From positions 1-60,982 of the IMG/VR virus record IMGVR_UViG_3300044695_002809: DNA of 60,982 nt. The stretch is one strand, 5' to 3'. The notes under the pieces were generated by a model. It had not been told where the DNA came from and ran no database searches. It saw only the letters and a program-made list of their open reading frames with translations. The position numbers were made by a program, and so were the translations under genes. Source of the DNA: a virus. Positions 5,059-50,088 of the stretch are shown here, piece by piece. How positions within the stretch are numbered: the first letter of the stretch is position 1; every line of letters begins with the position of its first letter.

Positions 5059-5991
5059 ATGAAAATATTAGTGACTGGTGGTGCTGGCTATATTGGCTGC
5101 ATTTTGACTGAGTATTTGTTGCAGATGAATCACGAAATAACTGTGATTGACAACTTCATGTATAGACAAACAGGATTAAATCATCTTTGTGAAAACAAAA
5201 GATTTTCTATTGTGAATGGCGACATTCGCAATCCAAATCATATGACACCTCTACTCAAAGATGCAGATGTAGTTATACCTCTTGCGGCACTTGTTGGTGC
5301 GCCTTTGTGTAATAAAGACATTGTTGGTGCTGACACGACAAATAAAGATGCGATGTTTTGGTTATTGAACAGCTTATCAAAAGACCAGCGTATCATTATG
5401 CCAACAACTAACTCCGCATATGGCACAGGGGACGAAAATAATTTCTGTACAGAAGAGTCTCCATTACGACCGATGTCGAAATATGCTGTAGATAAAGTGG
5501 CAGTAGAACAGCGTTTAATGGAACATGAAAACGCAATTAGCTATCGTCTTGCTACCGTGTTTGGCATGTCACCACGTATGCGTACAGATTTGTTAGTAAA
5601 TGATTTGACATATCGTGCAGTCAATGATGGATATGTCGTTATCTTTGAAGGACATTTTAAACGAAATTACATTCATGTACGCGATGTTTGTGAAGCGTTT
5701 TTACATGCAATTTATCAATTCGATGAAATGAAAGGTAACATTTATAACGTAGGTCTTTCGTCCGCAAACTTGTCTAAATTAGAACTTTGTGATATAATCA
5801 AGACACACATTCCTAATTTTACAGTAGTAGAGGGTGATATCAAAAAAGATCCTGATCAACGTAATTACATTGTCTCTAATGAAAAATTAGAGAAGACTGG
5901 TTGGGTACCATATTTTACACTAGACGACGGCGTAAAAGAACTCATCAAAGGATACACATACTTAAAGAATAATATTCACGGTAATGTATAA
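5059..5991 (+). CDS. NAD-dependent epimerase/dehydratase (extended SDR)
   Basis: Extended short-chain dehydrogenase of the nucleotide-sugar epimerase/dehydratase group. The N-terminal GGAGYIG (7-13) binds NAD(P). The catalytic YxxxK is YAVDK (Y142, K146), preceded by the Ser-containing TTNSAYG segment near 119-125. Length (310 residues) is usual. It begins two bases after the upstream stop. It probably epimerises, reduces or dehydrates an NDP-sugar made by the preceding kinase/dehydratase genes. It is the last gene of the first sugar cassette, and its stop overlaps the start of the late sigma factor gene. Confidence 0.85.
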   Translation: MKILVTGGAGYIGCILTEYLLQMNHEITVIDNFMYRQTGLNHLCENKRFSIVNGDIRNPNHMTPLLKDADVVIPLAALVGAPLCNKDIVGADTTNKDAMFWLLNSLSKDQRIIMPTTNSAYGTGDENNFCTEESPLRPMSKYAVDKVAVEQRLMEHENAISYRLATVFGMSPRMRTDLLVNDLTYRAVNDGYVVIFEGHFKRNYIHVRDVCEAFLHAIYQFDEMKGNIYNVGLSSANLSKLELCDIIKTHIPNFTVVEGDIKKDPDQRNYIVSNEKLEKTGWVPYFTLDDGVKELIKGYTYLKNNIHGNV

Positions 5992-7611: not shown

Positions 7612-9317
7612 TATTATTTAAAACTTTACGTTGGAAAAATTTACTCAGTACAGGCAACTATTTTACAGAACTAAAATTAAATAGTAATGCCAATACATTA
7701 GTTGTAGGTACAAATGGTTCTGGTAAATCTACAATGCTAGACGCATTGTGTTTTGCTTTGTTCGGTAAACCATTTCGCAATATTAACAAACCCAATCTCG
7801 TAAATTCAATAAACAATCGTGATTGTGTGGTTGAGATTGAATTCGATATTGGCAACAAACAATACAAGATTGTTCGTGGCATTAAACCGAACATCTTTGA
7901 GATATATCAAGATTCAGTTTTGCTGAACCAAGATGCGGCTGTAAGAGATTACCAAGACTACTTAGAGAAGTTTATTCTCAAACTAAACTACAAGTCTTTC
8001 ACGCAGATTGTTATTCTTGGTTCAGCATCCTTTACTCCGTTCATGCAGCTATCTGCTGCTGATCGTCGAGCAATCATTGAAGATTTGTTAGACATTCAAA
8101 TCTTCTCCACAATGAATAGCCTTGTCAAAGACAGACTTTCAATCAACAAAGACGTAATTGTTGGACAAAAAAACGAAATCGTTGTACTCAATCAACGATA
8201 TGAGTTGAAGAAGGAACATCAAGACAAACTCAATCAAGATAATGAAGCAAAGGTAAAAGAATATGAGAGTGAGATTCAAAGTAGTAGAGAAACCATTGGC
8301 ACCTTATCTAATGAAATTGACTTGTTGGGCAAACAAATCGCCACATTGGATGCCATCGTGGCAAAAGCACCTGAAAATGAGAAGAAGATTGCGGCGCTTA
8401 GAAAGATTGAATCGCAAATTGAAAGCAAGATATCCAAAGTGGCATCAGATAAACATTTCTATGAACACAATGCTGATTGTCCAACGTGCAGGCAAGCCAT
8501 TACCCTGGAGTTTAAAGAGGGACAACTTGGGGAAATTTTATCAAAGGAGCAGGAACTTACTGGCGGTCTAACTGAACTCTGTGAAAAAATAGAAACACAA
8601 CAAAAGATACTAGATGAAATCAGAGCAAGTGAAAAAGTTTTACAAAAAGTTCGTATTGAACTAGCCACAAAACAAACAGGTAAATCTGGTTTAGAATCTG
8701 CTATAAAAAAGCTAGAAAAACAAATCCAAGATTTGAAAAAACCTATATATGAAAATACAGATGGTAACGAACTTGAGATTCTACAAAAACAAATTGATGA
8801 AGCACATAATATTTTGAAGCAGCTATTAGATGAAAAAACATATTTTGATGTTGCGGCAAGCTTGTTGAAAGACACAGGAATAAAAACAAATATCATCAAA
8901 CAATATTTGCCTGTAATCAATAAGTTGATCAACAAGTATTTGTCAAGTATGGACTTTTTTGTAAACTTTAATCTTGATGAGTCATTTAAAGAAACAATTA
9001 AGTCTAGACATCGTGATGATTTTGGATATCACAATTTTTCAGAAGGTGAGAAACAGCGTATTGATATGGCATTGATGTTGACATGGAGATCGGTAGCTAA
9101 ATTGAAAAACTCCACGAACACGAATCTTTTAATACTCGATGAGGTGTTTGATTCGTCTTTGGATATTACAGGTACGGAAGAGTTAATGAAGATTCTTCAT
9201 GCGCTTGATGATGTAAATCTGTTTGTTATCAGCCACAAAGGTGATATACTACAAGATAAATTTGCAAACACAATTAGATTTGATAAGATTAAGAATTTTT
9301 CAAGGATAGTGACATGA
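7608..9317 (+). CDS. 46: Recombination endonuclease subunit gp46 (Rad50-like ATPase)
   Basis: SMC/Rad50-type ABC ATPase, partner of gp47. Walker A is GTNGSGKST near 34-42; coiled-coil arms follow, with a zinc-hook CPTC at C291-C294 between them. The C-terminal lobe holds the signature FSEGEKQRIDMAL and Walker B NLLILDEVFDSSLD near 505-518. Its ATP cycle controls the gp47 nuclease during end resection and recombination-primed replication. 569 residues is typical for the phage family. The 4-base overlap with gene 47 implies coupled synthesis. Confidence 0.95.
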   Translation: MILFKTLRWKNLLSTGNYFTELKLNSNANTLVVGTNGSGKSTMLDALCFALFGKPFRNINKPNLVNSINNRDCVVEIEFDIGNKQYKIVRGIKPNIFEIYQDSVLLNQDAAVRDYQDYLEKFILKLNYKSFTQIVILGSASFTPFMQLSAADRRAIIEDLLDIQIFSTMNSLVKDRLSINKDVIVGQKNEIVVLNQRYELKKEHQDKLNQDNEAKVKEYESEIQSSRETIGTLSNEIDLLGKQIATLDAIVAKAPENEKKIAALRKIESQIESKISKVASDKHFYEHNADCPTCRQAITLEFKEGQLGEILSKEQELTGGLTELCEKIETQQKILDEIRASEKVLQKVRIELATKQTGKSGLESAIKKLEKQIQDLKKPIYENTDGNELEILQKQIDEAHNILKQLLDEKTYFDVAASLLKDTGIKTNIIKQYLPVINKLINKYLSSMDFFVNFNLDESFKETIKSRHRDDFGYHNFSEGEKQRIDMALMLTWRSVAKLKNSTNTNLLILDEVFDSSLDITGTEELMKILHALDDVNLFVISHKGDILQDKFANTIRFDKIKNFSRIVT

Positions 9318-30212: not shown

Positions 30213-30968
30213 ATGGCGGCACAACAAGGCTTTTTATATGAAAAAAATGCAGCAATGGAACTGAAAAAATTTGGTCTTGTTCCTAAGTCTTTTGTTCCAG
30301 CAGGAGCAGGACATGATCAACCAGATTTGATGTTAGAATACAAAAAGAAAAAGGCAGGTTGTGAATTAAAAATTACAGCAGCATCAGCAGGTTCTCTTGT
30401 CATGAAATATGATAGAGAAGATAAAAAAAATCCTTGGAAATTTGGCGACATCAAAAAAGATGACGATGAAAAATTGTTCATTAAAGATTTAGCATATGAA
30501 GTAGGATTATTTGACATTATCAGTAAACAATGGAAACAAGTCCCATATAAAAGGGAAAAAGACGATAAGTGGGAAGCAACTGCAGGTAAATTAACACCAC
30601 AACAACGATATGAACGTGACCGTGATACATTCAAAGATATTCGTGGAGAAATACCTGCATCAAAAATTGAACAGTATTATAACAAAAAAGACACCTATTA
30701 TGTAAATGTTGGAACACATGGTTTTTATTTGATGGGTTCAAAAAATCCATTGAAACTTGCAGATGTGCCGATGTTTGGTAAATCCGCAAAAGCAAGTTAC
30801 AGAGCAAGAGTTCAATATAAAGGAAGTGGTAATTATCAATTTACGTTTGAAATGCAATTTTCAATTCCCGCAAATAGAAAATCTCCATACAATATTGCTC
30901 CCGTAAATGGCAAAAATGTTACAATAATAAAAAAAGACCTCAATCTAAGTTGTTTTCCCGAACTATGA
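30213..30968 (+). CDS. Putative PD-(D/E)XK nuclease-like protein
   Basis: 251 residues. GHDQPDLML (33-41) followed by GCELKIT (49-55) has the spacing P37-D38 ... E51-L-K53 of a PD-(D/E)XK active site, as in restriction and resolvase-type nucleases. The rest is Lys-rich and beta-strand-rich near the C-terminus. GGAGG lies before ATG, and a TATAAATA box is at 30184. The adjacent gene encodes a KxDG ligase-like protein, overlapping by 4 bases, so the pair may cut and seal nucleic acid. Nuclease activity is inferred from motif spacing. Confidence 0.6.
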   Translation: MAAQQGFLYEKNAAMELKKFGLVPKSFVPAGAGHDQPDLMLEYKKKKAGCELKITAASAGSLVMKYDREDKKNPWKFGDIKKDDDEKLFIKDLAYEVGLFDIISKQWKQVPYKREKDDKWEATAGKLTPQQRYERDRDTFKDIRGEIPASKIEQYYNKKDTYYVNVGTHGFYLMGSKNPLKLADVPMFGKSAKASYRARVQYKGSGNYQFTFEMQFSIPANRKSPYNIAPVNGKNVTIIKKDLNLSCFPEL

Positions 30969-32188
30969 AATTCATGGATTATCTAAGAGAAAGTAAAGAA
31001 GGAAAGAATGTTCATTTGGAACATTTGGAAGATAATGTACTGAACGCTGGCGTATCTGGTGCGCGTGAAGCAATTGAGTTTCTCCGTTCTTTGCGTAATA
31101 TGCTTGCTGGTCATACTGGCTCAAAAATAAATGTGACCACAAAATGGGATGGCGCACCTGCTATCTTTGCTGGCACAAATCCAGAGAATGGTAAATTTTT
31201 TGTTGGTACTAAATCAGTATTTGCAAAAAATGCAAAATTGAATTATACTGACGAAGACATCGATGAAAATCATCCGAGTGGTGGTTTGAATGAAAAACTC
31301 AAACTTGCCCTAGCGTTCTTGCCTAAGTTGGGCATCAAAGGTGTGCTACAAGGCGACATGATGTTTTCAAAAGGAGATATTCAAACCGAAACAATTGAGG
31401 GTGAAGATTATATTACATTTCAACCAAATACAATCGTGTATGCTGTGCCAACCAAATCAAAGTTAGCACAAACGATGCTTACTGCACAAATTGGTGTTGT
31501 GTTTCACACATCGTATTCGGGTAAAACATTAGAAACGATGAAAGCATCATTTAATATTGATATCGGACATTTGAAGCCAACAAAAGACGTTTGGTTTCGT
31601 GATGCTGCGTTTACTGACGCATCTGGTTCAGCAACATTCACACAAGAAGAAACAGCAGCAATTACATCAATTTTGTCTAACGCGGGTCGTGTGTTTCAAT
31701 CGATACCTGCATTGACATTAAATCGTATTGCTGCGTCGGATGTTTTCTTGACACAAATCAAAACATTCAATAACACAAAAGTTCGTGAAGGCAAAAAGAT
31801 TGCTGACACAAGAGTTCACACACAAGAACTCATCAATTATGTTGAGGCAAAGCTAAACAAAGAAATACTAGCAGCAAAGAAAGATGACACAAAACAGAAA
31901 CGCATCAAAGAGAAAAATGAAGTGATGCGTTTTTATCGGTCAAATGCCATTCAGTTGAAACAAATATTTGATTTGATGAATCTGATTGTCGATGCAAAGT
32001 TGATGATCATTCGTAAGTTGGAAACAATTAAAAACATAGGCACATTTGTTCGTACAGAAGATGGATTCAAGATTACGGCACCAGAAGGATTCGTCGCAGT
32101 TGATCATGTAGGCAAAGCGTTGAAACTAGTAGATAGACTAGAATTCAGTCACAAGAATTTTACAGCACAAAAGGCATGGGACAAATAA
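30965..32188 (+). CDS. KxDG nucleotidyltransferase/ligase-like protein (DUF6267-type)
   Basis: 407 residues from ATG 30965; a TTG at 30950 is less likely. TKWDGAPAIFAG contains K60-W-D-G63, the catalytic KxDG of DNA/RNA ligases and capping enzymes. FFVGTKS (78-84), GVLQGDMMF and IGVVFHTSY follow in the order expected for later ligase motifs, so it is a plausible divergent ligase. The start MKFMDYLRE resembles the T4 capsid-targeting sequence with an LxE cleavage site, suggesting packaging in the head. I recall this family as DUF6267 in T4-like phages; its biochemistry is unassigned to my knowledge. Confidence 0.65.
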   Translation: MKFMDYLRESKEGKNVHLEHLEDNVLNAGVSGAREAIEFLRSLRNMLAGHTGSKINVTTKWDGAPAIFAGTNPENGKFFVGTKSVFAKNAKLNYTDEDIDENHPSGGLNEKLKLALAFLPKLGIKGVLQGDMMFSKGDIQTETIEGEDYITFQPNTIVYAVPTKSKLAQTMLTAQIGVVFHTSYSGKTLETMKASFNIDIGHLKPTKDVWFRDAAFTDASGSATFTQEETAAITSILSNAGRVFQSIPALTLNRIAASDVFLTQIKTFNNTKVREGKKIADTRVHTQELINYVEAKLNKEILAAKKDDTKQKRIKEKNEVMRFYRSNAIQLKQIFDLMNLIVDAKLMIIRKLETIKNIGTFVRTEDGFKITAPEGFVAVDHVGKALKLVDRLEFSHKNFTAQKAWDK

Positions 32189-39413: not shown

Positions 39414-42173
39414 ATGAAATTTAGCGATTTTCTGCGTGAGCAGAAAGAAAAACATGCTGTCCTAGCATTTGGACGCATGAATCCGATTACAAACGGTCAC
39501 GAAAAAGTAGTTAAAACCGTTAAAAAACTTGCCAAACAAGTTGGCGGTTCACATCATATTGTCCTGTCACACTCACAGGATGCAAAGAAAAATCCCCTTA
39601 CAGTAGAACAAAAGATCAAACATGCTAAACATGCGTTTGCCGACACAAACTTTGTAGCAGCATCCAAAGAATCGCCTACATTCTTTGATTATGCAGAAAA
39701 ACTATACAAACAAGGCGTAACTCATCTTCACATGGTTGCTGGTTCTGATCGTGCTGTTGAATATGTAAAATTACTTCAAAAATATAATGGCACACATAAA
39801 GGTGCCCGTTTCAATTTCAAATATGTTGGTGTAGAATCCGCTGGTGAACGTGATCCAGATGCAGAAGGTGCAGAAGGAATTTCTGCATCAAAGATGCGTG
39901 ACGCTGCAAAGAACGGAGACTTTGATACTTTCAAAAAAGGTGCGCCATCAACAATGTCAGTTGCTCAAGTCAAACAAATGTATAACGATGTTCGTAAAGG
40001 TATGAGACTTCATGAAGAAATACTTCGTGAAGGTGTTCATGACAAAGGTATTTTCAAAGCAGTATTTCTAGGTGGTGGTCCCGGTTCAGGTAAAGACTAT
40101 GTGTTAAGCAAAACACTTGATGGTCATGGTCTGACAGAAATCAATTCTGACAAAGCACTTGAGTATTTGATGGACAAAGAAGGTCTTGATAAGAAGATGC
40201 CTGATGATGAAGAAGCACAACGTAATGCAGTTCGCAAGAGAGCAAAAAATGTAACGGAATTACGTCAGCGCCTTGCACTTCATGGACGTAATGGATTAAT
40301 TATCAATGGTACAGGTGATGATCCAGAAAAGTATGCAAAACTTAAAGACATGCTTGAAAAGTTAGGCTATGAAACACAGATGATCATGGTCAACACAGCA
40401 GACGAGGTTTCAAAAGAAAGAAACATCGAACGTGGTCAGCGCGGTGGTCGTACTGTACCAGAAAACATTCGTAAAGAAAAATGGGATTCTGTGCAAGCAG
40501 CACGACCAATGTTTGGTAAAATATTTCGTGACAATTACATTGAGTTTGATAATTCAGAAGATTTGCGTACCGCATCTCCAGATGTTGTGGAAGCAAAGAC
40601 CAAAGAATTAGACGGCATTTTTAAGAGCGTACAAAAATTTGTTGCAAAACCACCTAAGAATGATGATGCAAAAGGCTGGATTGCTACTGAACTCGGCAAG
40701 AAAGATACCGCACCGATTCGTACCGACATGAAACCACACGCTGATGCAGGCACACATGATGACATGAACACGATGGGACTTGAATACTATGGTTTTGGTC
40801 GTTATGGTAAAGATGGTAAAGTAACACACCGTTCTGTACACGGCAGTCTTGTGCCAGTTGAGAAGATTGCAAAAACTGTTGAAACACATCAAAAGAAAAT
40901 GTCAAAAGTAAATGAGGCATTTGATAAACTCATCAATGAAGCAGTTACAGTTTCGATTACTGGCGACACAGTAGAAGAAGTTACTAAAACAATTCGTTTG
41001 CTGAAAACGGACGAAGAAGAAATGACTGAGGAAGAAGAAGTGAATACAATGTCTGATCCTGGTGCATACAATCTACTGACACTCGGTACAGGCATGATCA
41101 AAGAAGATTTGCGTAATTGGTTTAATCCAAAACATCCAGAGGGTGGTTGGAAACGAATCAATTCTAAAGGTGAAGCAATAGGTCCTTGTGCAAGAGAAGA
41201 GGGTGAACCAAAGCCAAAATGCATGTCAAATGCAAAGAGAGCAATGCTTTCTAAAAAAGAACGCGCATCAGCAGTTGCATCAAAACGCCGTCATGATCCA
41301 AATCCAGAACGCAAGGGCGAACCAATTAATGTGTCAAGTTTTGGTAAAGGCAAAATTAGTGAAGCCGCATACGAGGGCAACATTGGCATGATGGAAGTTA
41401 TGAAGTTCCATCAGAAAGCCACACCAGAACAAAAGAAAAAGTTCAAAGAACATCTTGCAAACAAAAATCACAAAGAAGCATGGAAAATGATTCAACATGT
41501 TTCTGGTACAAAGTTGATCGGTAAACAATTTGAAGAAACCGAAAAGAAGCAAAAACTGTTGACAGATAAAAATGGTAAACCAAGATTGTTTTTCATTCGT
41601 GGTTCAGCAGCAAAAGAAGCACATCAAAAAAATGGTACAGTAGCAAAAGTTGGTAAAAGATATGTCGTTAAACTAAAAGAGGACTTATATGAAGTACATT
41701 CACCTAATAATTCTGCGATTGAAGCAGTTTATGGACAGAATAACTCCACCCCGTCAGCCGAGCAACTTGGAAAAGTCAGAGCCAGTACTGGAAGAAAAGA
41801 ACGACCAGCCCTCGACAAACCCGTTGCCGAAGGAAGAAGAACAATCAGTCTTGCCAGCATCAAAGAAAACTGGCAGAAAAAAATCCAAGAGTCAATAGAC
41901 AAAGGAATAGAACCAGGCATTTCAATGGCAGGTGCTGGTGAAAGCCCTGCAAGAGATATGGGTGAGAAACCAGATCGTGATGGTAAAGCAACACAAGTTA
42001 CATGCAATGGTACAGGCGCAGGTGCAATATGTCCTAAACACGGAATGAAAAATTGCAGGCTTGCAGAATTAACTGGTGATGAAACAACAGCAAGTATCGG
42101 CGATCAAAAAGAAGATGAATTGAAGAAAAAAGGTATATCACTCACAACATTCAAGAAAAAAAATTACATATGA
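39414..42173 (+). CDS. Nucleotidyltransferase / P-loop kinase fusion with capsid-targeting-like N-terminus
   Basis: 919 residues. The start MKFSDFLRE resembles the T4 capsid-targeting sequence (MKTYQEFIAE) with an LxE cleavage site. AFGRMNPITNGH (about 18-29) and ISASKMRDAA (near 157-166) identify a nucleotidyltransferase of the HIGH type. A second catalytic domain has the P-loop GGGPGSGKD at about 220-228 and resembles zeta-toxin/kinase proteins. A long Lys/Glu-rich tail follows, with KHPEGGWKRIN and related modules I recall from other marine phages. A late promoter lies upstream. Likely head-packaged; substrate unknown. Confidence 0.7.
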   Translation: MKFSDFLREQKEKHAVLAFGRMNPITNGHEKVVKTVKKLAKQVGGSHHIVLSHSQDAKKNPLTVEQKIKHAKHAFADTNFVAASKESPTFFDYAEKLYKQGVTHLHMVAGSDRAVEYVKLLQKYNGTHKGARFNFKYVGVESAGERDPDAEGAEGISASKMRDAAKNGDFDTFKKGAPSTMSVAQVKQMYNDVRKGMRLHEEILREGVHDKGIFKAVFLGGGPGSGKDYVLSKTLDGHGLTEINSDKALEYLMDKEGLDKKMPDDEEAQRNAVRKRAKNVTELRQRLALHGRNGLIINGTGDDPEKYAKLKDMLEKLGYETQMIMVNTADEVSKERNIERGQRGGRTVPENIRKEKWDSVQAARPMFGKIFRDNYIEFDNSEDLRTASPDVVEAKTKELDGIFKSVQKFVAKPPKNDDAKGWIATELGKKDTAPIRTDMKPHADAGTHDDMNTMGLEYYGFGRYGKDGKVTHRSVHGSLVPVEKIAKTVETHQKKMSKVNEAFDKLINEAVTVSITGDTVEEVTKTIRLLKTDEEEMTEEEEVNTMSDPGAYNLLTLGTGMIKEDLRNWFNPKHPEGGWKRINSKGEAIGPCAREEGEPKPKCMSNAKRAMLSKKERASAVASKRRHDPNPERKGEPINVSSFGKGKISEAAYEGNIGMMEVMKFHQKATPEQKKKFKEHLANKNHKEAWKMIQHVSGTKLIGKQFEETEKKQKLLTDKNGKPRLFFIRGSAAKEAHQKNGTVAKVGKRYVVKLKEDLYEVHSPNNSAIEAVYGQNNSTPSAEQLGKVRASTGRKERPALDKPVAEGRRTISLASIKENWQKKIQESIDKGIEPGISMAGAGESPARDMGEKPDRDGKATQVTCNGTGAGAICPKHGMKNCRLAELTGDETTASIGDQKEDELKKKGISLTTFKKKNYI

Positions 42174-42952
42174 AAACTTTCAAACAAATGATAGATGAGA
42201 GATGTTGGCCTGGGTACAAGCCTGTGCCAGGTAAAAAACCGTATTCATTAGGTTCTTGTCAAAAAGAAGAGATTGAAGAATTGGAAGAAAAAGGTCCTGG
42301 TTTGTGGGCAAATATTCGTGCAAAGAAAGCACGAGGTGAGCGTATGAGAAAGCCAGGAGAAGAAGGTGCACCAACTGATGCTCAAATCAAATCAATTAGA
42401 GCAAGTGAAGAAGTGGAACTAAGTGAATTGTCTAAATCAACTTTAGGTTCTTATCTGGTTAAAGCAAGTACAAATGCAAGACAATTAGAAGGAAGTAGAG
42501 TGCGTGGTGGAACACAAAGAGGAAAGTTTCTTGCTTATAAAAAAATAAAAAAAGATATATCAAACAGATACGCTGGCATGGACCGTGCTATTTCAAAATT
42601 CCATTCAAAGTTAAATAAAGAAGAGTATGAACAAGATGATGGCGCATTGACTGAAGATCAACTAGAACAAATGAGAGAAGCAGCAGCATGGGAACGCGCA
42701 GAAGGTAAAAACCCAGAAGGCGGTTTGAATCGAAAAGGTATTGAATCATACCGTCGTGAGAATCCAGGTTCAAAGTTATCAATGGCAGTAACAACAAAAC
42801 CTTCTAAGCTTGACCCAGATTCTAAAGCAGCAAAGCGCCGCAAATCATTTTGTGCAAGAATGGGTGGAATGAAAAAAAGATTAACATCAGCAAAGACTGC
42901 AAAAGATCCAGATTCACGCATTAACAAAGCATTGAGAAAGTGGAACTGCTGA
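42170..42952 (+). CDS. Late protein with capsid-targeting start and DUF6321-like C-terminus
   Basis: 260 residues. MKTFKQMIDE at the start is a capsid-targeting-like sequence with IxE. EEIEELEE and EEVELSELSKSTLGSY are members of a motif family repeated in the next late genes. The C-terminal ~85 residues (WERAEGKNPEGGLNRKG, then KAAKRRKSFCARMGGMKKR, ending ALRKWNC) form a conserved Arg/Lys-rich module that I recall as DUF6321. It probably binds nucleic acid inside the head; this is inference. Overlaps the 919-residue gene by four bases. Confidence 0.65.
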   Translation: MKTFKQMIDERCWPGYKPVPGKKPYSLGSCQKEEIEELEEKGPGLWANIRAKKARGERMRKPGEEGAPTDAQIKSIRASEEVELSELSKSTLGSYLVKASTNARQLEGSRVRGGTQRGKFLAYKKIKKDISNRYAGMDRAISKFHSKLNKEEYEQDDGALTEDQLEQMREAAAWERAEGKNPEGGLNRKGIESYRRENPGSKLSMAVTTKPSKLDPDSKAAKRRKSFCARMGGMKKRLTSAKTAKDPDSRINKALRKWNC

Positions 42953-43179
42953 TGAAAACATTTAAGTCCTTCATAGTTGAAGAAAAGAAAGCAACAATAA
43001 CTAAGAAAGAAAGTTATCGTGGCAGAACAACAGCCGATGTTGAATATAATGTACATGATGAAAATGGCCGTCATATTAGAACCACAAAAACTAAAAAAGA
43101 AGCAAAAATGTGGAAAGATATGCATGAACTATCAAGGGAAGAAATGCATAAAAAATATCCGGAGTTAAAGCCAAAATAA
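42952..43179 (+). CDS. Small basic late protein with capsid-targeting-like start
   Basis: 75 residues from ATG 42952, overlapping the upstream TGA; a GTG at 42940 is possible. MKTFKSFIVE followed by basic residues is the clearest T4-like targeting and IxE cleavage pattern in the window. The rest is rich in Lys and Arg with a YRGRTTADVEYNVHDENG segment. It resembles internal-protein-type peptides that T4 packages and injects. Function after entry is unknown. Confidence 0.6.
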   Translation: MKTFKSFIVEEKKATITKKESYRGRTTADVEYNVHDENGRHIRTTKTKKEAKMWKDMHELSREEMHKKYPELKPK

Positions 43180-43196: not shown

Positions 43197-44507
43197 GTGG
43201 CACAGTTTAGAACAGACCTACACAAGATAGATTCGGGACAAGTATTCACTCGGTATGAAGTGAATATGATGTCTGATCGTCTTACACCATCTGGCACAAT
43301 TACGGATGCGTTTGGTCGTCTTCGTCTATCACAACCATTTACTCTTTTTGATAGCACACATCGCTTTGCTGACAACGGACTGTGGTCAACATCAAATACA
43401 GCAGGAAATAGTTCTTATAATTTTGTAACGAATAAAAGTCTCATTGAAATGACTGTAGGAACTACAGCAAATGCTGAAGTCATTCGTGAAACAACAAGAG
43501 TGTTTTCATATCAACCAGGTAAGTCTTTGTTAATGATGTCGTCATTTGCTATGGAAACACCTAAAGCAAATGTTCGTCAAAGAGTTGGTTATTATGGTGC
43601 TGAGAATGGTATCTATCTTGAGAATGATGGAACGACTAATTATTTCGTGTTGAGAAGCAATACAACAGGTACGATTACAGAAACAAAAGTTGCACAAACA
43701 GATTGGAGTATAGACAAGTTTGACGGCACGGGTTATTCATCTCAAAGTGGTGGTGCTGAACATACTGATGGCATTGATATAAGTAAAACAAATATTCTCT
43801 GGATGGATGTTGAATGGCTTGGCGTTGGTGATGTTCGTTGTGGATTTGTGGTTGATGGTAAAATGGTTCCTGCCCACATATTTCACAATGATAATAAGAA
43901 TTTGGTTCCTTATATGACAACGGCATCTTTACCGTTGCGTTATGAAATCAAGAACACAGGTATTACAACAAGTAATTCCACACTCAAACAGATTTGTTCA
44001 ACCGTTATGTCTGAAGGTGGATATGAATTGCTTGGATCGCAGCAAGCCGTAGGCACACCAGTTACTAGCCCAATTGATTTGGCCGCTGCTGGAACATATT
44101 ATAATCTCATTTCTTTGAGATTGAAATCGGATAAATTAGATGCGATTGTCATTATTACTGCACTATCTTTATTAGCCTTAACTAACAACTCATATTATAA
44201 CTGGCAACTCAGGGCAGGTGGCACAACAACAGGTGGAACTTGGGTTAGTGCAGGAGATAATTCGTCTGTTGAATATAAATTAGATGCCGCAACAATTTCA
44301 GGTGGAAGAATATTAGCATCGGGCTTTACAACTTCTACTACACAAAGCTCTATACCAGTGGATATTCTTAGAGAAGCACTATTCAAATTTCAATTAGAAA
44401 GAAATGGATTGACCAATACACCCTTCGAACTCACATTATGCGTAGCAGCATCAGTTAATGGTTCTGATATCTACGCATCGATGGATTGGGAAGAAGTCAC
44501 AAGATAA
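43197..44507 (+). CDS. Virion structural protein
   Basis: 436 residues, beta-rich, with Thr/Ser/Gly-rich segments. FRTDLHKIDSGQVFTRYEVNMMSDRLTPSG at the N-terminus and TDAFGRLRLSQPFTLFDSTHRF next are typical of a structural protein family present in T4-like marine phages. DWSIDKFDGTG and TNILWMDVEWLGVGDVRCGF occur in the middle. The GTG start at 43197 has GGAA about 8 bases upstream. Its exact place in the particle is not known; no T4 orthologue is recognised. Confidence 0.7.
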   Translation: MAQFRTDLHKIDSGQVFTRYEVNMMSDRLTPSGTITDAFGRLRLSQPFTLFDSTHRFADNGLWSTSNTAGNSSYNFVTNKSLIEMTVGTTANAEVIRETTRVFSYQPGKSLLMMSSFAMETPKANVRQRVGYYGAENGIYLENDGTTNYFVLRSNTTGTITETKVAQTDWSIDKFDGTGYSSQSGGAEHTDGIDISKTNILWMDVEWLGVGDVRCGFVVDGKMVPAHIFHNDNKNLVPYMTTASLPLRYEIKNTGITTSNSTLKQICSTVMSEGGYELLGSQQAVGTPVTSPIDLAAAGTYYNLISLRLKSDKLDAIVIITALSLLALTNNSYYNWQLRAGGTTTGGTWVSAGDNSSVEYKLDAATISGGRILASGFTTSTTQSSIPVDILREALFKFQLERNGLTNTPFELTLCVAASVNGSDIYASMDWEEVTR

Positions 44508-44532
44508 CAAAAACTAAATCAGGAGAACAAAA

Positions 44533-46047
44533 ATGTCAATTTTTCATGACAAAAATCTAAAAAGTGTTGCGGAAGCAGCAGCAAAGATCATGGCTGAAAC
44601 AAGTCATGAATTAAAGGGCAACCAACATAAAATTGACGCCAATAAAAATGGCAAAATTGATGCTCACGACTTTAAGCTTCTGCGTGGTAAGAAAGACACA
44701 AAGAAAGACATGCAAGAAGGTGTTAAAGGTGCAGCAGTTGGTGGTGCATTAGGTGCTATGGCAGGTGGTCCAGTTGGCGCAGCAGTTGGTGGTGCATTAG
44801 GTCATGCGGCTGGTGAGGTTCTTTCAAGCGCAAAAAATAAAGCAAAAACAATGGGTCGTGTTGCTGTGGGTCCTTCAATGGCCGATAGCAAAATGAAGAA
44901 AGAAGAGATTGAGCAACTTGATGAAGTTGGTGATACACCATCAGGTAGAAAAACACTAAGCTCATATGTCAACAAAGCAATTGGTGACAAATCAAAAGAT
45001 CGCTCAAAAGGTTTGCGTAAAGCAACATCACGCCTCTACAAAGACAACTTCTACGGCAAAAAAACAAATGAAGAAGTTGAACAGATTGATGAGATCAGTT
45101 TAGATTTAGCAAAAAGAGCCAGAGATAAAGCCGAGCATATGGTTGATGCGGATCATGACGATATGAGAGATAAACCATATGGTTATAGTGAAAAGCAAAG
45201 AGTCAAGTTTCAAAAATACGTTGACAAAAAAGAGTCAAAGAAAAACGTAAAAGAAGAAGTTGAACTTGATGAAGCATTTCCAACTGTAGCAGATGCAAAG
45301 AAGCGTATGGATGCAGGTAAAACAGCAACAGGTTCAGTCACAAAAACTGCAACAGGTCTTGTTCATAAGCGTGACTACAAAGATGATGATAATGATGAAG
45401 CACCAAAAAAATCAACAGGTTATGGCGCGCGTCAAAACTACAAGCGTTCAACCCGTGTCAATGAGGCAGCATCATTTACAGAAATGCTTGAACTGTACAA
45501 TGAGCATGGTCTGAAAGTGTTAGCACCAATTGAAACAGAAGAGATGGACATTGATGGCACGATGATTGAAGTTATTGATGCAGATCAAGTGAACGGTTTC
45601 GTTCAAACTGAAATTGAGGAAGGCATCATGGACGTTGCAAAAGGTGCGGTAGGTGTAGTAAAAAATGTCATTTCAAAAGAAAAAGAGTATCAAGCACAAA
45701 AGCAGAAAAAAGCAGGCGAAGTTTTGAGAAAACTTCGTAAAGAAGAATCACTATCAGAAGAACCAACAAATGATGAGTTCACAAAAGAATATGAAGACCA
45801 AAAAGCAAGTTTTGAAGGTAAAAAGAAACAACCAAAAGTTGCTGCTGGTAAAACAACTGGTGTAAAAGAAATGCCTGAGAGTTATCAGCAAATTGATGAG
45901 CGTGAACTATCAACTGGTGAAGCCAAGAAAAAAGAAGAATATGTCAAAGGCATGAAGAAGGGTCTTTCTGGCTTTAAACAGCGTTATGGTGAACGTGCTA
46001 AATCTGTAATGTATGCAACGGCTACAAAAATGGCTAAAAAGGACTAA
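44533..46047 (+). CDS. Late protein with EF-hand-like loop, glycine zipper and repeat motifs
   Basis: 504 residues. The loop D35-A-N37-K-N39-G-K41-I-D43-A-H-D46 fits an EF-hand/dockerin calcium site. A glycine-zipper region follows (about 64-92; GALGAMAGGPVGAAVGGALG), which could associate with membrane. Three acidic motifs then recur: EEIEQLDE, EEVEQIDE and EEVELDE. The C-terminus ELSTGEAKKKEEYVKGMKK is a module I recall from other phage late proteins. Probably a virion-associated or head-packaged protein. AGGAG precedes the ATG. Confidence 0.6.
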   Translation: MSIFHDKNLKSVAEAAAKIMAETSHELKGNQHKIDANKNGKIDAHDFKLLRGKKDTKKDMQEGVKGAAVGGALGAMAGGPVGAAVGGALGHAAGEVLSSAKNKAKTMGRVAVGPSMADSKMKKEEIEQLDEVGDTPSGRKTLSSYVNKAIGDKSKDRSKGLRKATSRLYKDNFYGKKTNEEVEQIDEISLDLAKRARDKAEHMVDADHDDMRDKPYGYSEKQRVKFQKYVDKKESKKNVKEEVELDEAFPTVADAKKRMDAGKTATGSVTKTATGLVHKRDYKDDDNDEAPKKSTGYGARQNYKRSTRVNEAASFTEMLELYNEHGLKVLAPIETEEMDIDGTMIEVIDADQVNGFVQTEIEEGIMDVAKGAVGVVKNVISKEKEYQAQKQKKAGEVLRKLRKEESLSEEPTNDEFTKEYEDQKASFEGKKKQPKVAAGKTTGVKEMPESYQQIDERELSTGEAKKKEEYVKGMKKGLSGFKQRYGERAKSVMYATATKMAKKD

Positions 46048-46049
46048 TT

Positions 46050-47306
46050 ATGTCAGTCGCAGATAAATTACATCAACGACAAATGGCTCTGCGTAAGAAG
46101 TCGGGACTACCACATCCCGACTATTACAAAGAGTTGGGGCATTCATACAATATTTCTGATGATAACGAAAGACTTGCGAAGCAGGCTGAAATCAAAAAGA
46201 AATATAAAGTTGAAGAAGTTGAACAACTTGATGAGATGCCAGAGTCAAGCATGAAGACACGCGATGTTCATGCACATTTAAAAAAGTCTGGCTGGTCACT
46301 CAAACGCACAGGTGGTGGTCATGATGTTTATGCTCACCCCAAATCAGAGAAACATATTGCTGTGCCAAGACATAAACAACTCAAAGCACCATTAATTCGT
46401 GGTATTATGAAAGCATCAAGAGTTTCTGAAGAAACCGAAATTGATGAGCAACTTCACAAGAAAGGAAAGTTTGTGTCAGGTCCAGTTAAAAAACCATACA
46501 AATCACCTACCGTGGTTTCACCAATTAGAGAAGCAAAAGATTCGCGTGAGTATGATTACGAAGGCGATATGGCAATGTCACAACTTCGGTCGTTAGTTTT
46601 TAATGCAGAAGATTTGATGGAAATGATGGATGAAAACACAAATCTTCCTGAGTGGGTGCAATCAAAAATTACACTTGCTGAAGATTATATCTCTACAGCA
46701 GCAAACTATCTGCGTGGTGAATTATCGGAGTCGGTTAGTTTGAATGAAGGTCGTCCATCACAGCGTCATCCACTAGAGGGTCATGAGTATCACAAAAAAT
46801 CTAATGCCGAGTTGATTGGTATTGCTAAAGATGCACACGCTGCTGCTGAAGCAATGAAAGGACACAGTCCACGGGCAGAGAACAAATATCGTGATCAAGC
46901 AAACGATTCTGCAACAGTAAGATATTTCCGTCAAAAGAGTGGCATGCCCGACTGGTACAAGAAGAAGTATGGACATGTCAAGGAAGAAGTTGAACAGTTG
47001 GAAGAAAAGAATGTACCAACTTCACCTGAGAAGTGGGCGCAGGCTAAAGCACAAGCAAAGCAAAAGTTTGATGTATATCCTTCAGCATATGCAAATGGTT
47101 GGGCTGCAAAGAAATACAAAGAAATGGGTGGTGGTTGGAAGTCTGTAAACGAAGACACGGATGATCCAAGCGCAGCAGCAAGAACTCTGTCACGTAAAGC
47201 ACAAATCGTGAGAGATGCCGCAAAAGGAAAAAAGCAAGAACAAGAACAGGCATCGGACAAGTTTCAAAAAGACCCCGAATTGTCTAGCGATATGCAGAAA
47301 ACATAA
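46050..47306 (+). CDS. Late multidomain protein containing a HicA-like domain
   Basis: 418 residues. Residues 68-122 resemble HicA mRNA interferases: HLKKSGWSLKRTGGGHDVYAHP then KHIAVPRHKQLKAPLIRGI, with His91 in the position of the catalytic His. The domain lies between EEVEQLDE (55-62) and EETEIDE (127-133). Further modules include NTNLPEWVQSKITLAEDYIS (near 196-215), a third acidic motif EEVEQLEE (312-319) and WAQAKAQAKQKFDVYPSAYA (near 329-348). No HicB-like antitoxin is recognised in the window. The gene starts two bases after the previous stop. Confidence 0.65.
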   Translation: MSVADKLHQRQMALRKKSGLPHPDYYKELGHSYNISDDNERLAKQAEIKKKYKVEEVEQLDEMPESSMKTRDVHAHLKKSGWSLKRTGGGHDVYAHPKSEKHIAVPRHKQLKAPLIRGIMKASRVSEETEIDEQLHKKGKFVSGPVKKPYKSPTVVSPIREAKDSREYDYEGDMAMSQLRSLVFNAEDLMEMMDENTNLPEWVQSKITLAEDYISTAANYLRGELSESVSLNEGRPSQRHPLEGHEYHKKSNAELIGIAKDAHAAAEAMKGHSPRAENKYRDQANDSATVRYFRQKSGMPDWYKKKYGHVKEEVEQLEEKNVPTSPEKWAQAKAQAKQKFDVYPSAYANGWAAKKYKEMGGGWKSVNEDTDDPSAAARTLSRKAQIVRDAAKGKKQEQEQASDKFQKDPELSSDMQKT

Positions 47307-47309
47307 ATA
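47302..47309 (+). promoter_or_regulatory. Late promoter box CATAAATA
   Basis: CATAAATA differs from the T4 late box TATAAATA at the first base only. It lies at the end of the HicA-domain gene, 28 bases before ATG 47338 of a structural gene, which has AGGAG. Confidence 0.55.
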
Positions 47310-47337
47310 AACAATCAAAGATTTATAGGAGAAAAAC

Positions 47338-47916
47338 ATGCCACTTTGGGGAAATGTAGACGCATCTAACAATGCTCCAAACTTTTCGGGTTTAACTGGT
47401 TACGACACATCAACTACAGGTGAAAGTCTAGCCAACTCAGAAACATCATCAGTATTTTCAAATACTTACATGAGCGCAACCCGTACAAATGTAGAGTTTG
47501 GTGTATTTGGTATAGATACAACAGAAGAAGGACTGATTACCGATGGTCAACCAACACACGCTGGTTGGGTAGCCCGCACTAAAGGTGCTGGTCCTGTCGT
47601 ATCAGTTTCGGCAAATACCGATGCTGTAGGTCCAGCAGCATCAGCCTGCACATATACACTGGTGCTTTCAGGTGGTGGTACAAACAATACCTCTGCACAA
47701 GTCAGCGTAACTACCGCTGATACTGGTAGAGTTACAGCAGTCACAGTTACAAATGCTGGATTGTACACGGGCACACCAACAGCAAACACATTTGGTAATA
47801 CAGCATTTACCTTCACAATGGGCGGTCGTAATGGACGCACCACATTTGAAACTTTAGTAGCAATGGGTTCAATGACTGGTGATGCATCCGATGACGCTAT
47901 CGCACCTGATTCTTAA
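47338..47916 (+). CDS. Virion structural protein
   Basis: 192 residues, beta-rich and Thr/Gly/Ala-rich. MPLWGNVDASNNAPNF at the start and MGGRNGRTTFETLVAMGSMTG at the end are marks of a structural protein family present in marine T4-like phages. The central part has an Ig-like beta-sandwich composition. A late-type box and AGGAG lie upstream, and a strong hairpin lies just after the gene. Particle location not known. Confidence 0.7.
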   Translation: MPLWGNVDASNNAPNFSGLTGYDTSTTGESLANSETSSVFSNTYMSATRTNVEFGVFGIDTTEEGLITDGQPTHAGWVARTKGAGPVVSVSANTDAVGPAASACTYTLVLSGGGTNNTSAQVSVTTADTGRVTAVTVTNAGLYTGTPTANTFGNTAFTFTMGGRNGRTTFETLVAMGSMTGDASDDAIAPDS

Positions 47917-47924
47917 TTGAAATG

Positions 47925-47946
47925 GCGGCTGCTTTTGGGCAGCCGC
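47925..47946 (+). terminator. Strong hairpin after structural gene
   Basis: GCGGCTGC (47925-47932) and GCAGCCGC (47939-47946) form a perfect 8-bp GC-rich stem with loop TTTTGG. Flanking AAT/ATT can extend it past a bulged G. The T-tract is poor (ATTCATTA), so termination would be partial; RNA-end protection is an alternative. It ends just before ATG 47954. Confidence 0.65.
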
Positions 47947-47953
47947 ATTCATT

Positions 47954-48346
47954 ATGTCCTTTGAAAATCTGACTGAAGATAATATCATGTTGTATGCTGC
48001 AAAAGCGTATGATAAACCTAACTGTATCATGAGTGAATTTACTGAAGATATGAAACGTCTGAATTATCTTAAACGATTGTTCAGACGTTATCATAAACAT
48101 GGTGAGATGCGTGAGCGGTTGATACTCAATCATATCGTCGTTTTATACAACCTTTTTGGACCTGAAGCGGTTGCAAGAATACTCTTCTACAACACAAGCA
48201 AAAGTGATTATAGTGCATTAAAAACTTATCTAACTTTTTTAAATCTAATGCCAGAAAAAATTCGTGGAATTAACGGAAAAGATATACTGTCATCGGATAT
48301 TTTAATTGACATGAAAATTGCAGACGTTTTAAGAAATCTAAAATGA
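47954..48346 (+). CDS. Conserved-looking phage protein of unknown function
   Basis: 130 residues, mostly helical. MSFENLTEDNIMLYAAKAYD then RLNYLKRLFRRYHKHGEMRERL and ILNHIVVLYNLFGPEAVARILF match a protein I recall from T4-like marine phages near structural genes. It begins 8 bases after the hairpin and overlaps the next gene by four bases. Role unknown; a chaperone or assembly function is possible. Confidence 0.7.
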   Translation: MSFENLTEDNIMLYAAKAYDKPNCIMSEFTEDMKRLNYLKRLFRRYHKHGEMRERLILNHIVVLYNLFGPEAVARILFYNTSKSDYSALKTYLTFLNLMPEKIRGINGKDILSSDILIDMKIADVLRNLK

Positions 48347-49062
48347 TTATCGGACAAGGAGTATCAGTTGGTGGAGGAATTTATGTTGATGCGAAAAGTG
48401 ATAATTTTCCACCAGAAGGTGTAAATAAATTGTATTATGGAGATTTAGGCAATCTTTTTGATGCTTCAACATATAGCGGAAGCGGCAATCAATGGATTGA
48501 TACTCAGAGTGGTAACATTGCAACGCTGATTAATTCTCCAACGTACAGTACAGATTTTACAGGGTATTTCGAATTTAACGGCATCAATCAAAGAGCAACT
48601 GTTTCCGGAACGCCTTTAAATCCTGTAAGTTATACTAAGTGTGCTTGGTTTTATCTCAACGGGACTCAGGCAAATCATTTGATCAGTTTTAATGACGGTA
48701 CTGGAACTGGTCACTACATGGCGTTTAATAACACAAACAAATTATATTGTGGACATACTTCATGGCCAGGGTTTCCACTTTCGTTTGAGTCCGTAACAAC
48801 TTTCGATAATTTTGTTTGGTATTTTGTTGCAGTAACTTTTGACACAATTTCAGGAATGACGCTTTTTGTAAATGGAAGAGAAGATAGTAAATTTACCCTA
48901 TATAAAACTCCTCCTGTTGCAAGTCAAATAGGTATCGCAAGCTATGACAATTTTGGACATTTCAAAGGAAGAATCGGCAGAGTTTATATCTATAACCGTG
49001 CATTGACCGCTGAAGAAGTGCGCTGGACTTTTAATGGAACCAGATATATTTACTCAATTTAA
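48343..49062 (+). CDS. LamG-like (concanavalin-type) domain protein, possible adhesin
   Basis: 239 residues. From about residue 75 the pattern FNGINQRATVSGTPLNP, CAWFYLNG, VAVTFDTISGMTLFVNGR and FKGRIGRVYIYNRALTAEEV is that of a LamG jelly-roll lectin/adhesion domain. The Gly-rich start (IIGQGVSVGGGIYVD) is virion-like. It may be a receptor-binding or decoration protein for surface glycans. Starts in a four-base overlap with the upstream gene; the CTAAATA at 49063 belongs to the following gene. Confidence 0.75.
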   Translation: MIIGQGVSVGGGIYVDAKSDNFPPEGVNKLYYGDLGNLFDASTYSGSGNQWIDTQSGNIATLINSPTYSTDFTGYFEFNGINQRATVSGTPLNPVSYTKCAWFYLNGTQANHLISFNDGTGTGHYMAFNNTNKLYCGHTSWPGFPLSFESVTTFDNFVWYFVAVTFDTISGMTLFVNGREDSKFTLYKTPPVASQIGIASYDNFGHFKGRIGRVYIYNRALTAEEVRWTFNGTRYIYSI

Positions 49063-49069
49063 CTAAATA
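49063..49069 (+). promoter_or_regulatory. Late promoter box CTAAATA
   Basis: CTAAATA 49063-49069, right after the LamG gene stop. The following ATG is at 49075, close to where transcription should start, so the first gene would be leaderless or start-trimmed. The box may mainly serve the lysis genes beyond it. Confidence 0.55.
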
Positions 49070-49074
49070 GAACT

Positions 49075-49407
49075 ATGTCTAACGAATTCAAAAAAGAATG
49101 TGGTAAAGGATACTATTGGTGCAGTACAGATAAAGTCTGTAAGCCACTACAAGAATCTATGGAAACTACAAAGTTTTGTCCTGCATGTAATAAAACAGAA
49201 AAACGCTCTGAGTGTGCATTTGGTCCAGAGTATTTTGATAAAAATGCAAGAAGCATGAAAGAAGATATGGGAGCACCAGCAAATGCGGTTGGTGGTGGTG
49301 CTATTGCTGGTCTTGGCGTTGGACAGCAAGGTGAACCTGGTGTAAAGAAACGCAAAACTGCAACATTCATTTCATTTATAAAGAGAAAGTCAAATGTGGC
49401 TTCTTAG
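49075..49407 (+). CDS. Cys-containing late protein of unknown function
   Basis: 110 residues. GKGYYWCSTDKVCKP and FCPACNKTEKRSEC carry six cysteines arranged like a small zinc- or disulfide-stabilised domain. GAPANAVGGGAIAGLGVG, then QGEPGV, is a Gly-rich module I recall in other marine phage late proteins. A late-type box is immediately upstream. It overlaps the i-spanin gene by 14 bases. Function unknown. Confidence 0.6.
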   Translation: MSNEFKKECGKGYYWCSTDKVCKPLQESMETTKFCPACNKTEKRSECAFGPEYFDKNARSMKEDMGAPANAVGGGAIAGLGVGQQGEPGVKKRKTATFISFIKRKSNVAS

Positions 49408-49831
49408 TTTTTTGCCCAGTGGATTTCTTTTATTCATTATCAATACAGTTTTAATTTGCGGTGCTGTCGGTGCCGTAATTGGTTTTTTAGGTAGTAGGCT
49501 GCCAGTTGTTGGCAACTATGCAAACGTAATTAAATATGTTTCCATAGTATTACTCTGTATCGGCATATATTGGAAAGGAGGCTATAGCGTAGAGCAAGAG
49601 TGGCGTCAACGAGTGGCTGAATTAGAGGAGAAAGTGAAAGATGCAGAAGCGAAATCACAGCAGACAAATGTTGTTATTGAAACGAAAGTCAGAGAGAGAG
49701 TTAAGAGAGTCGTTGAAAAACGAGAGGTCGTTGTTGAGAAGATTAAAGAAGTGGAAAAAGTTATCGATGCAAAATGTGAACTTGATCCAAGCGTAGTAAA
49801 CCTTTTGAATGAAGCAGCCAAAAAGCCATGA
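49394..49831 (+). CDS. Inner spanin (i-spanin) candidate
   Basis: 145 residues. Two hydrophobic stretches (about 9-33 and 46-62) are followed by a long charged coiled coil and the Cys-containing end AKCELDPSVVNLLNEAAKKP, similar to the C-termini of Rz-type i-spanins. It should span the periplasm and contact the o-spanin encoded by the next gene, to disrupt the outer membrane at lysis. One TM is usual; two predicted segments mean that the N-terminus may lie outside. Overlaps the o-spanin gene by four bases. Confidence 0.75.
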   Translation: MWLLSFLPSGFLLFIINTVLICGAVGAVIGFLGSRLPVVGNYANVIKYVSIVLLCIGIYWKGGYSVEQEWRQRVAELEEKVKDAEAKSQQTNVVIETKVRERVKRVVEKREVVVEKIKEVEKVIDAKCELDPSVVNLLNEAAKKP

Positions 49832-50088
49832 AAAAATTACTTATAGTTTTATTGCTTACTGGTTGTAGTACAACTGTGCCAGTGGCGCGTAAATTTCCTG
49901 AAATCCCAGATTCATTCAAGAATTCTTGTGCGCCACTGGCACAAATAAAAGAAGGCACAACCAAACTGAGTGAAGTGATTACGGTTGTTGCCGATAACTA
50001 TACAGAGTATCACCTGTGTAGTGATAAAGTTGACATGTGGATAGAATGGTATAGATTACAAAAAGAGAATTTTGATTCTGTAAAATAA
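49828..50088 (+). CDS. Outer spanin (o-spanin) lipoprotein
   Basis: 86 residues. MKKLLIVLLLTGC is a lipoprotein signal with lipobox LTGC (Cys13 becomes the lipid-modified N-terminus). The mature part has the Cys residues CAPL and HLC and the Pro-containing KFPEIPDSF segment seen in Rz1-type proteins. With the upstream i-spanin gene it forms a two-component spanin set for outer-membrane disruption, which indicates a Gram-negative host. Confidence 0.85.
   Translation: MKKLLIVLLLTGCSTTVPVARKFPEIPDSFKNSCAPLAQIKEGTTKLSEVITVVADNYTEYHLCSDKVDMWIEWYRLQKENFDSVK

Follow-up and report, generated by a model that had tools for sequence, protein, structure and literature searches.

How does a virus come to carry a HicA toxin domain, normally one half of a toxin-antitoxin pair, in the interior of a much larger protein with no HicB in view? 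The question is raised by a 418-aa ORF (46050–47306, + strand) in a 61 kb virus record, the whole of which is referred to here as the window. The DNA polymerase encoded in the window is closest to those of Synechococcus T4-like phages (about 52% identity); a DNA search with positions 44000–50000 of the window against phages gives no match, and Photo_RC (PF00124) is detected in 0 of 12 records. An earlier note on this DNA had placed a HicA-like domain between predicted prohead-protease sites (46248–46453, corresponding to about residues 67–134 of the 418-aa protein). The answer that we propose, and to which we assign an even chance, is that the gene product is a head-packaged polyprotein of a T4-type phage that is cut in the prohead, and that the HicA module is ejected and acts on RNA in the next host. 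The components of this proposal differ in strength: from the comparisons described below, the 418-aa protein is probably a cut head protein, and it is possible, at somewhat less than an even chance, that HicA is an active RNase in the host.

The presence of a HicA-type domain, as the earlier note had read it, is confirmed. A Pfam search identifies HicA_toxin (PF07927) at residues 71–122 with an E-value of 1.3e-9 and a score of 38.5 bits against a cut-off of 27, and this is the sole Pfam family in the protein at E-values up to 1; in addition, phrog_353 (“toxin”) matches residues 66–124 with an E-value of 2e-12. Structure prediction, which had been suggested beforehand as a check, leads to the same assignment. 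Modelled with AF2 from 21 distinct sequences, the module consists of a helix, three strands and a second helix, in this order, with a core pLDDT of about 90; both the predicted model and its structural matches conform to the HicA fold (dsRBD-like, alpha-beta-beta-beta-alpha). In a Foldseek search of the PDB, the top six rows comprise HicA structures, TTHA1913 and a toxin-antitoxin complex (five entries in all). In the leading row, the E-value is 1.1e-3 and the probability 1.00, and no row passes 0.001. The VIA-align Z-scores are 9.9, 9.0, 9.0, 7.9, 7.0 and 6.5 for the HicA-type or toxin-antitoxin entries and 4.3 for the next row. The title of one of the entries, 5yrz, mentions a toxin-antitoxin complex only, which we take to be a HicA complex. 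The viral structure library yields phage HicA-like proteins and a 220-aa protein, A0A7D7F2M4, as matches to the module model.

The active site is likewise recognizable. The residues Gly89-Gly90-His91 (46314–46322) correspond to Gly22-Ser23-His24 of Burkholderia HicA, and the alignments place Gly89 on Gly22 and His91 both on His24 and on a histidine of TTHA1913, so that the catalytic histidine is where the earlier note had located it; His24 of the Burkholderia protein appears as alanine in the alignment because the structure is that of the H24A mutant. In the Burkholderia protein, toxicity is lost in the H24A and G22C mutants (PMC3969222). Both Gly89 and His91 are invariant in the 21 modules and in 33 unique module proteins, and the VPRH loop is invariant in the latter set as well. 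Among 54 of the 55 modules collected from viral loci (33 unique proteins; L130 was left out for a gap), dS falls between 0.05 and 1.5 for 498 of the 903 pairs, and for these the median Nei-Gojobori dN/dS is 0.17, with no pair above 1. The invariant glycine and histidine together with the low dN/dS indicate, therefore, that the domain is kept by selection along with its active-site residues. Thus, residues 71–122 are a real HicA domain under purifying selection.

Such conservation bears directly on what the domain might do in a phage head. One alternative, which we consider rather unlikely, accepts that the module is cargo set free in the head by cutting and holds that it is a dsRBD-like, nucleic-acid-binding packing or scaffold module whose RNase activity is dead or weak. 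Its attractions are that the freed module would be basic (pI 9.8) with a fold described as dsRBD-like (PMC3969222); that the residue following His91 in the alignments is aspartate, unlike the histidine at this place in Burkholderia HicA; that most of the other modules found in these proteins show no known enzymatic family; and that overexpression of a lone HicA-like protein of mycobacteriophage LeBron is reported not to be toxic, related HicA-like proteins of other mycobacteriophages being toxic (PMC13148394). However, the invariance of the glycine and histidine needed for toxicity and of the VPRH loop across 33 proteins seems to be more than a binding scaffold would need.

The predicted product, residues 63–133 (46236–46448), comprises 71 amino acids. 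As stated in the earlier note, it is preceded by the linker EEVEQLDE, which ends at residue 62 (residues 55–62, 46212–46235, predicted cut after E62), and terminates with EETEIDE, which ends at residue 133 (residues 127–133, 46428–46448, predicted cut after E133). According to PMC9026906, the T4 protease gp21 cuts after L/I-X-E. In the model of the full-length protein, which has an overall pLDDT of 55 and is used here just for the pattern of domains and linkers, HicA is folded at residues 70–123 with a pLDDT of about 80, and both predicted sites fall in flanking stretches, 56–64 and 126–190, with pLDDT below 50.

A scan with the whole protein identifies relatives at 77 viral loci (the best 80 of 144 matches), and the HicA module is present in 30 ORFs of these loci, again among the best 80 of 144. 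A scan with the module finds it at 55 viral loci that overlap the 77-locus set and include many close relatives and near-identical members (33 unique proteins among the 54 compared). In all 55, [LI]xE lies immediately upstream of the module (LDE in 48, IDE in 3, LEE in 2, IEE and LTE in one each), against a background of 1.6 occurrences of [LI]xE per 100 residues in the same proteins. The predicted upstream site was outside the search because the module query starts at Met63, after this site. The sequences preceding the module fall into 18 groups without mutual BLAST similarity and two short ones, i.e., 20 contexts. In the two short ones, L126 and L127, the module directly follows an N-terminus resembling the capsid-targeting sequence (CTS) of T4 and an LDE; immediately ahead of the module, these proteins read MKTFKAFISEEVELLDE and MKSFTQFINEEVEILDE.

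On the other side of the module, [LI]xE is contained wholly within module positions 64–74 in 26 of the 55 cases, compared with a frequency of 14% for 11-aa windows across these proteins, and occurs within 27 residues in 41 of the 55. It is missing from the downstream place in 29 of the 55, and therefore the freed piece would often be longer. The predicted downstream site is much less constant than the predicted upstream one, so that, of the two cut sites put forward in the earlier note, the first has gained strong support and the second, just partly conserved, moderate support.

A search of 50,697 phage records with the module returns 3 weak matches at an E-value of 0.01 and, at an E-value of 10, matches in 41 records, many of which are annotated as HicA-like toxins. 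In Synechococcus phage S-M1, an 86-aa HicA-like ORF has hypothetical proteins and a helicase as its only surroundings within 3 kb.

As comparison with the relatives indicates, the 418-aa protein (46050–47306) has a mosaic, polyprotein-like organization, in which EEVEQLDE-type linkers connect modules that can be exchanged for one another. In BLAST comparisons with ORFs of the 77 loci (best 80 of 144), its parts appear permuted, split and fused to other sequences. The HicA module is followed by a possible site, IRE (residues 159–161), and an acidic helical module, AKDSREYDYEG...YLRG (residues 162–233), which ends in another possible site, LNE (together 46524–46748) and is also seen in other contexts. 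Next comes the module GRPSQRHPLEGHEY... (residues 234–319, 46749–47006), which ends with the linker EEVEQLEE, and then KNVPTSPEKW...FDVYPSAYANGW (residues 320–368, 47007–47153). The positions of candidate sites relative to these and related modules range from fixed to loose. The GRPSQ module (residues 234–319), GRPSQRHPLEGH, is directly behind [LI]xE in 55 of the 59 instances seen among unique ORFs; for the FDVYPSAYAN module (residues 320–368), all of the 14 pattern matches found in relatives show the site at a fixed distance of 3 residues; and the W-RKEGK module has it at 1 residue in 16 of 19. The REYDYEG module has [LI]xE at distance 5 in 20 of 40 cases and at distance 7 in one, with no [LI]xE within 25 aa in the other 19. 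For the RCW module, [LI]xE is found directly before it in 6 of 18 cases, at distance 2 in two and not in ten, several of which follow MxE or VxE. Some modules lie directly behind targeting-like N-termini, e.g., MKNFKTFITE-GRPSQ and MISFKEFINES-AAWQRKEGK.

The places where homology between mosaic proteins breaks off give a more diffuse signal. [LI]xE is found near 569 of 2001 breaks versus 393 expected (1.45-fold), and enrichment extends to EE (1.62-fold), [VMF]xE (1.38), Ex[LI] (1.29) and [KR]xE (1.28); [LI]xD, [LI]xK, [LI]xQ, [AG]xE and Kx[LI] are not enriched at the breaks. Given that these other acidic motifs are enriched too, what the test picks out is the whole acidic linker rather than [LI]xE. 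Pfam searches with 10 mosaic proteins detect HicA in two, Zeta_toxin in one and no family in seven. Among the proteins that contain HicA, DUF5824 is found beside it in L140, DUF6321 in L126, and a weak intein match in L142.

The gene for the 418-aa protein lies in a run of genes on the + strand. Immediately upstream is a 504-aa mosaic gene (44533–46047) with the linkers EIEQLDE, EVEQIDE, EEVELDE and TEIEE, as read from the matching 504-aa ORF of locus L001, preceded by a gene for a 436-aa virion structural (head and packaging) protein (43197–44507; phrog_1645, E-value 3.6e-135). Further upstream are a 75-aa ORF (42952–43179) with the capsid-targeting-like start MKTFKSFIVE and no Pfam family at an E-value of 0.01, and a 260-aa protein (42170–42952) that combines a targeting-like N-terminus, MKTFKQMIDE, with an RCW module and a C-terminal DUF6321 domain (residues 179–258, E-value 5.7e-18). 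ORFs that resemble the 75-aa ORF and start alike are present at loci L035 and L037. Upstream of these is a gene for a 919-aa protein (39414–42173), which has a loose targeting-like N-terminus, one residue short, followed by cytidylyltransferase-like and Zeta-toxin-like domains identified by Pfam. The Zeta-toxin-like kinase domain is a second toxin-antitoxin fold in the same gene cluster.

These N-termini can be compared with T4, where both ipII and ipIII start with MKTYQEFIAE, the CTS; residues 4 and 7 are important for the targeting of IPIII, and residues 8 and 10 for its processing (PMC9026906). The pattern used here (aromatic residue at 4, hydrophobic at 7 and 8, Glu at 10) fits 42 of 1228 unique ORFs on the + strand of the 77 loci (best 80 of 144), none of 1141 on the – strand and 1 of 5756 internal methionines; each homologue counts on its own in these figures, and the loci had been selected for containing these modules. 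In the window, the strict pattern is found at two ORFs (42170 and 42952) and the loose one at 39414, 30965 and 58709. The 418-aa protein, which starts with MSVADKLHQRQMAL, fits neither the strict nor the loose pattern, and most of the HicA-bearing proteins compared also lack a targeting-like N-terminus, those of L126 and L127 having one. The loose start at 30965, MKFMDYLRESKEGKNVHLEHLEDN, belongs to a gene at 30950–32188 (+ strand) that matches DUF6267 over nearly its full length (E-value 8.6e-116) and possibly encodes another head-internal protein; in L053, a long ORF whose start fits the strict pattern has an NVHLEH look in common with it.

A link from such N-termini to actual virions comes from the cultured cyanophage S-CREM2, the virion of which has been analysed by mass spectrometry (PMC10665884). 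Within about 143 of the 175 kb of its genome (all but 42–57 and 76–93 kb), the strict pattern is found at the annotated starts of two CDS, gp6 (SAM hydrolase) and gp154 (cytidylyltransferase), and both are in the virion table; the loose pattern adds gp136, which is in that table, and gp30, which is not. The virion protein gp154 has 33% identity over 197 aa with the 919-aa protein of the window, and a putative cytidylyltransferase is also reported from S-SM1 virions (PMC3037559). Furthermore, modules of gp137 and gp160 recur in ORFs found at the loci (64% over 97 aa and 53% over 190 aa); their coverage in the virion is low, with 4 peptides (4.1%) for gp137 and 7 peptides (13.1%) for gp160 (PMC10665884). 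The virion proteins gp137, gp154 and gp160 are homologous to other modules or to a neighbour of the HicA gene, and none is HicA. The start of gp6 (L166, record position 5081, – strand), MKDFDSFLEE, is targeting-like, and the protein was detected in the virion by mass spectrometry; this SAM hydrolase is perhaps an anti-restriction enzyme carried in the head.

The enzyme predicted to do the cutting is encoded in the larger related genomes. The T4 prohead protease family, Peptidase_S77, is found in 11 of 15 records (the exceptions are the window fragment and three others). Of 12 HicA records, 4 carry it (G002, G003, G007 and G025). Portal_T4 is detected in the same four of the 12, which are the only ones longer than 100 kb; Peptidase_S77 was not found in the window record and seven other HicA records, all of 82 kb or less. 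The N-terminal propeptide of the major capsid protein ends in [LI]xE in 9 of 9 records (8 distinct), with variable neighbouring residues, at what we take to be the place where T4 gp23 is cut. A similar site precedes an alanine in the small core protein encoded between portal and protease, presumably the counterpart of gp67/gp68, in 8 of 9 records. Among the small basic core proteins of L157–L165, EEVILDE-AS and EVEVLDE-AR come close to the linker of the mosaic proteins.

These results can be set against the possibility that the 418-aa protein remains uncut, as a multidomain structural protein of the head or neck, with HicA as one of its domains and the linkers as mere acidic spacers. Such an arrangement would fit the shortness of [LI]xE and the outcome of the homology-break test, which picks out the E-rich linker as a whole; yet it leaves unaccounted for the exact placement of [LI]xE before HicA (55/55) and GRPSQ (55/59), the similar sites that related viruses have in their major capsid and small core proteins, and the occurrence of the same modules directly behind CTS-like N-termini, and we regard it as improbable. 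The protease of the relatives, the two CTS-like fusions and the virion homologues in S-CREM2 favour a protein that is cut in the head and injected. The interpretation given in the earlier note is supported in part, and the domain that it singled out is one module of a larger, shuffling polyprotein system.

Under the proposed mechanism, small modules are strung on EEVEQLDE-type linkers that a T4-type prohead protease could cut, and the HicA module is one cargo cassette, which would be produced late, in the interior of the fusion. The fusion would enter the prohead core, where HicA would be released by a cut after E62 and, in this lineage, also after E133; the freed module would stay with the DNA, be ejected into the next host, and there bind and probably cleave RNA early in infection, in host takeover or counter-defence. 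Packaging and cutting of the HicA protein are supported at the level of sequence; we infer these two steps, together with late expression, ejection, RNase activity and control by confinement. Weighing against the account are the lack of a targeting sequence on the 418-aa protein, the inconstancy of the downstream site and the lone HicA-like protein of phage LeBron that was reported as non-toxic (PMC13148394). According to this proposal, HicB would be dispensable, the toxin being held first within the fusion and afterwards inside the capsid. A more general version, which we offer as distinctly tentative, is a cassette system in which any module behind an EEVEQLDE linker would enter the prohead within the precursor, be freed by the protease and be injected, with HicA controlled by compartment and not by an antitoxin, i.e., inert or harmless as precursor, released only in the sealed capsid and active only in the next host.

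The statement of the earlier note that no HicB is in view holds for the two HicB families searched for, PF15919 and PF05534, each with 0 matches in 16 records that are mostly fragments (the largest are 214, 172 and 133 kb). A standalone toxin-antitoxin locus was considered and rejected, with no HicB family match and with HicA lying inside a larger ORF. The same lack of a detectable HicB in the phage records would suit a module that meets the HicB of the host, either titrating the antitoxin or hijacking the regulation of host HicAB upon entry, and the fold matches do include HicA chains solved together with HicB (6g26, 4p78 and 6hpb). However, cellular genome contigs gave 23 pattern matches and no relative of the module, so that a matching HicB is not evident, and the chance of this scenario appears slim. 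Finally, translation from an internal start at Met63, which would yield free HicA with no cutting and for which one could cite a Met right after the site in 55 of 55 cases (partly by design of the search pattern), is rejected as highly improbable, since a Shine-Dalgarno-like core 5–16 nt upstream is found in 0 of the 55 loci versus 25 of 55 at the listed starts of the genes (L146 being without a start in view).

Effectors carried in virions have precedents in the T4 internal proteins, the polyvalent proteins and the MuF toxins. The first of these form a small, if classic, set, and to our knowledge not much has been learned about what environmental T4-type phages carry in their heads. With IPI-III and Alt of T4, which have a CTS, are cut by gp21 and are ejected, the system described here has in common the (L/I)xE sites, the protease and portal in the larger relatives, and CTS-like N-termini, which occur in neighbouring genes and, among relatives, on the same modules; it differs in having several modules per chain, inner sites, no N-terminal CTS on the 418-aa protein and the fold of a toxin from toxin-antitoxin systems. 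The polyvalent proteins of phages and plasmids (PMC5512222), which carry disparate enzymatic or DNA-binding domains, resemble the 418-aa protein in uniting multiple domains in a single, presumably injected chain, whereas here the modules are small and lie between predicted prohead-protease sites; the main text of that paper does not mention HicA. The MuF polymorphic toxins of temperate phages (PMC5576092) similarly place a toxin domain on a putative head protein; unlike these, the 418-aa protein has no MuF match (Pfam, E-values up to 1) and its HicA domain is internal, not C-terminal, and HicA is not mentioned in the main text of that paper either.

With the HicA toxins themselves (PF07927; Burkholderia pseudomallei, 4c26 and 6g26; Thermus thermophilus TTHA1913, 1whz), the module shares the profile, the predicted fold, the equivalents of Gly22 and His24, and the form of a small basic domain, and it differs in being flanked by predicted protease sites within a mosaic protein of virion type, with no HicB detected and no relative among the cellular genome contigs scanned. 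HicA genes are also known from phage genomes, at times without HicB, namely in mycobacteriophages (PMC13148394), Porphyromonas gingivalis prophages (PMC10367356), Paracoccus (PMC6536676) and Acinetobacter phage R3177 (PMC5795418). In the available text of these four papers and of PMC12619734, they are treated as toxin-antitoxin, antitoxin or lone toxin genes, with no HicA module as head or virion cargo. More generally, neither HicA as virion cargo nor cassettes bounded by prohead-protease sites were found in searches of the open-licence PMC literature. In the present case, the recognizable fold of a toxin-antitoxin RNase figures among a number of modules that can be exchanged and that are bordered by sites of the prohead-protease type. 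If the proposal is correct, T4-type phages would evolve injected effectors via module swapping at protease sites, a simple sequence rule (a CTS-like N-terminus and an EEVEQLDE linker) would allow head cargo to be read from metagenomes, and HicA would provide a case of a toxin tamed without HicB and a new way for a virus to use a bacterial toxin.

Several further proteins in these loci deserve mention. In L142 (2809–6213), a protein of at least 1135 aa, truncated by the end of the locus, has HicA near its N-terminus and a weak intein-splicing match with an E-value of 9e-4, below the cut-off. In L071 (5236–7266), a 677-aa mosaic protein consists of a Zeta-toxin-like kinase fused to the same module set. 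Between the mosaic genes of L067, a 197-aa ORF (8633–9226) perhaps encodes a homing endonuclease, with weak matches to HNH (E-value 5e-4, just below the cut-off) and NUMOD3 (E-value 4.5e-4, just above it).
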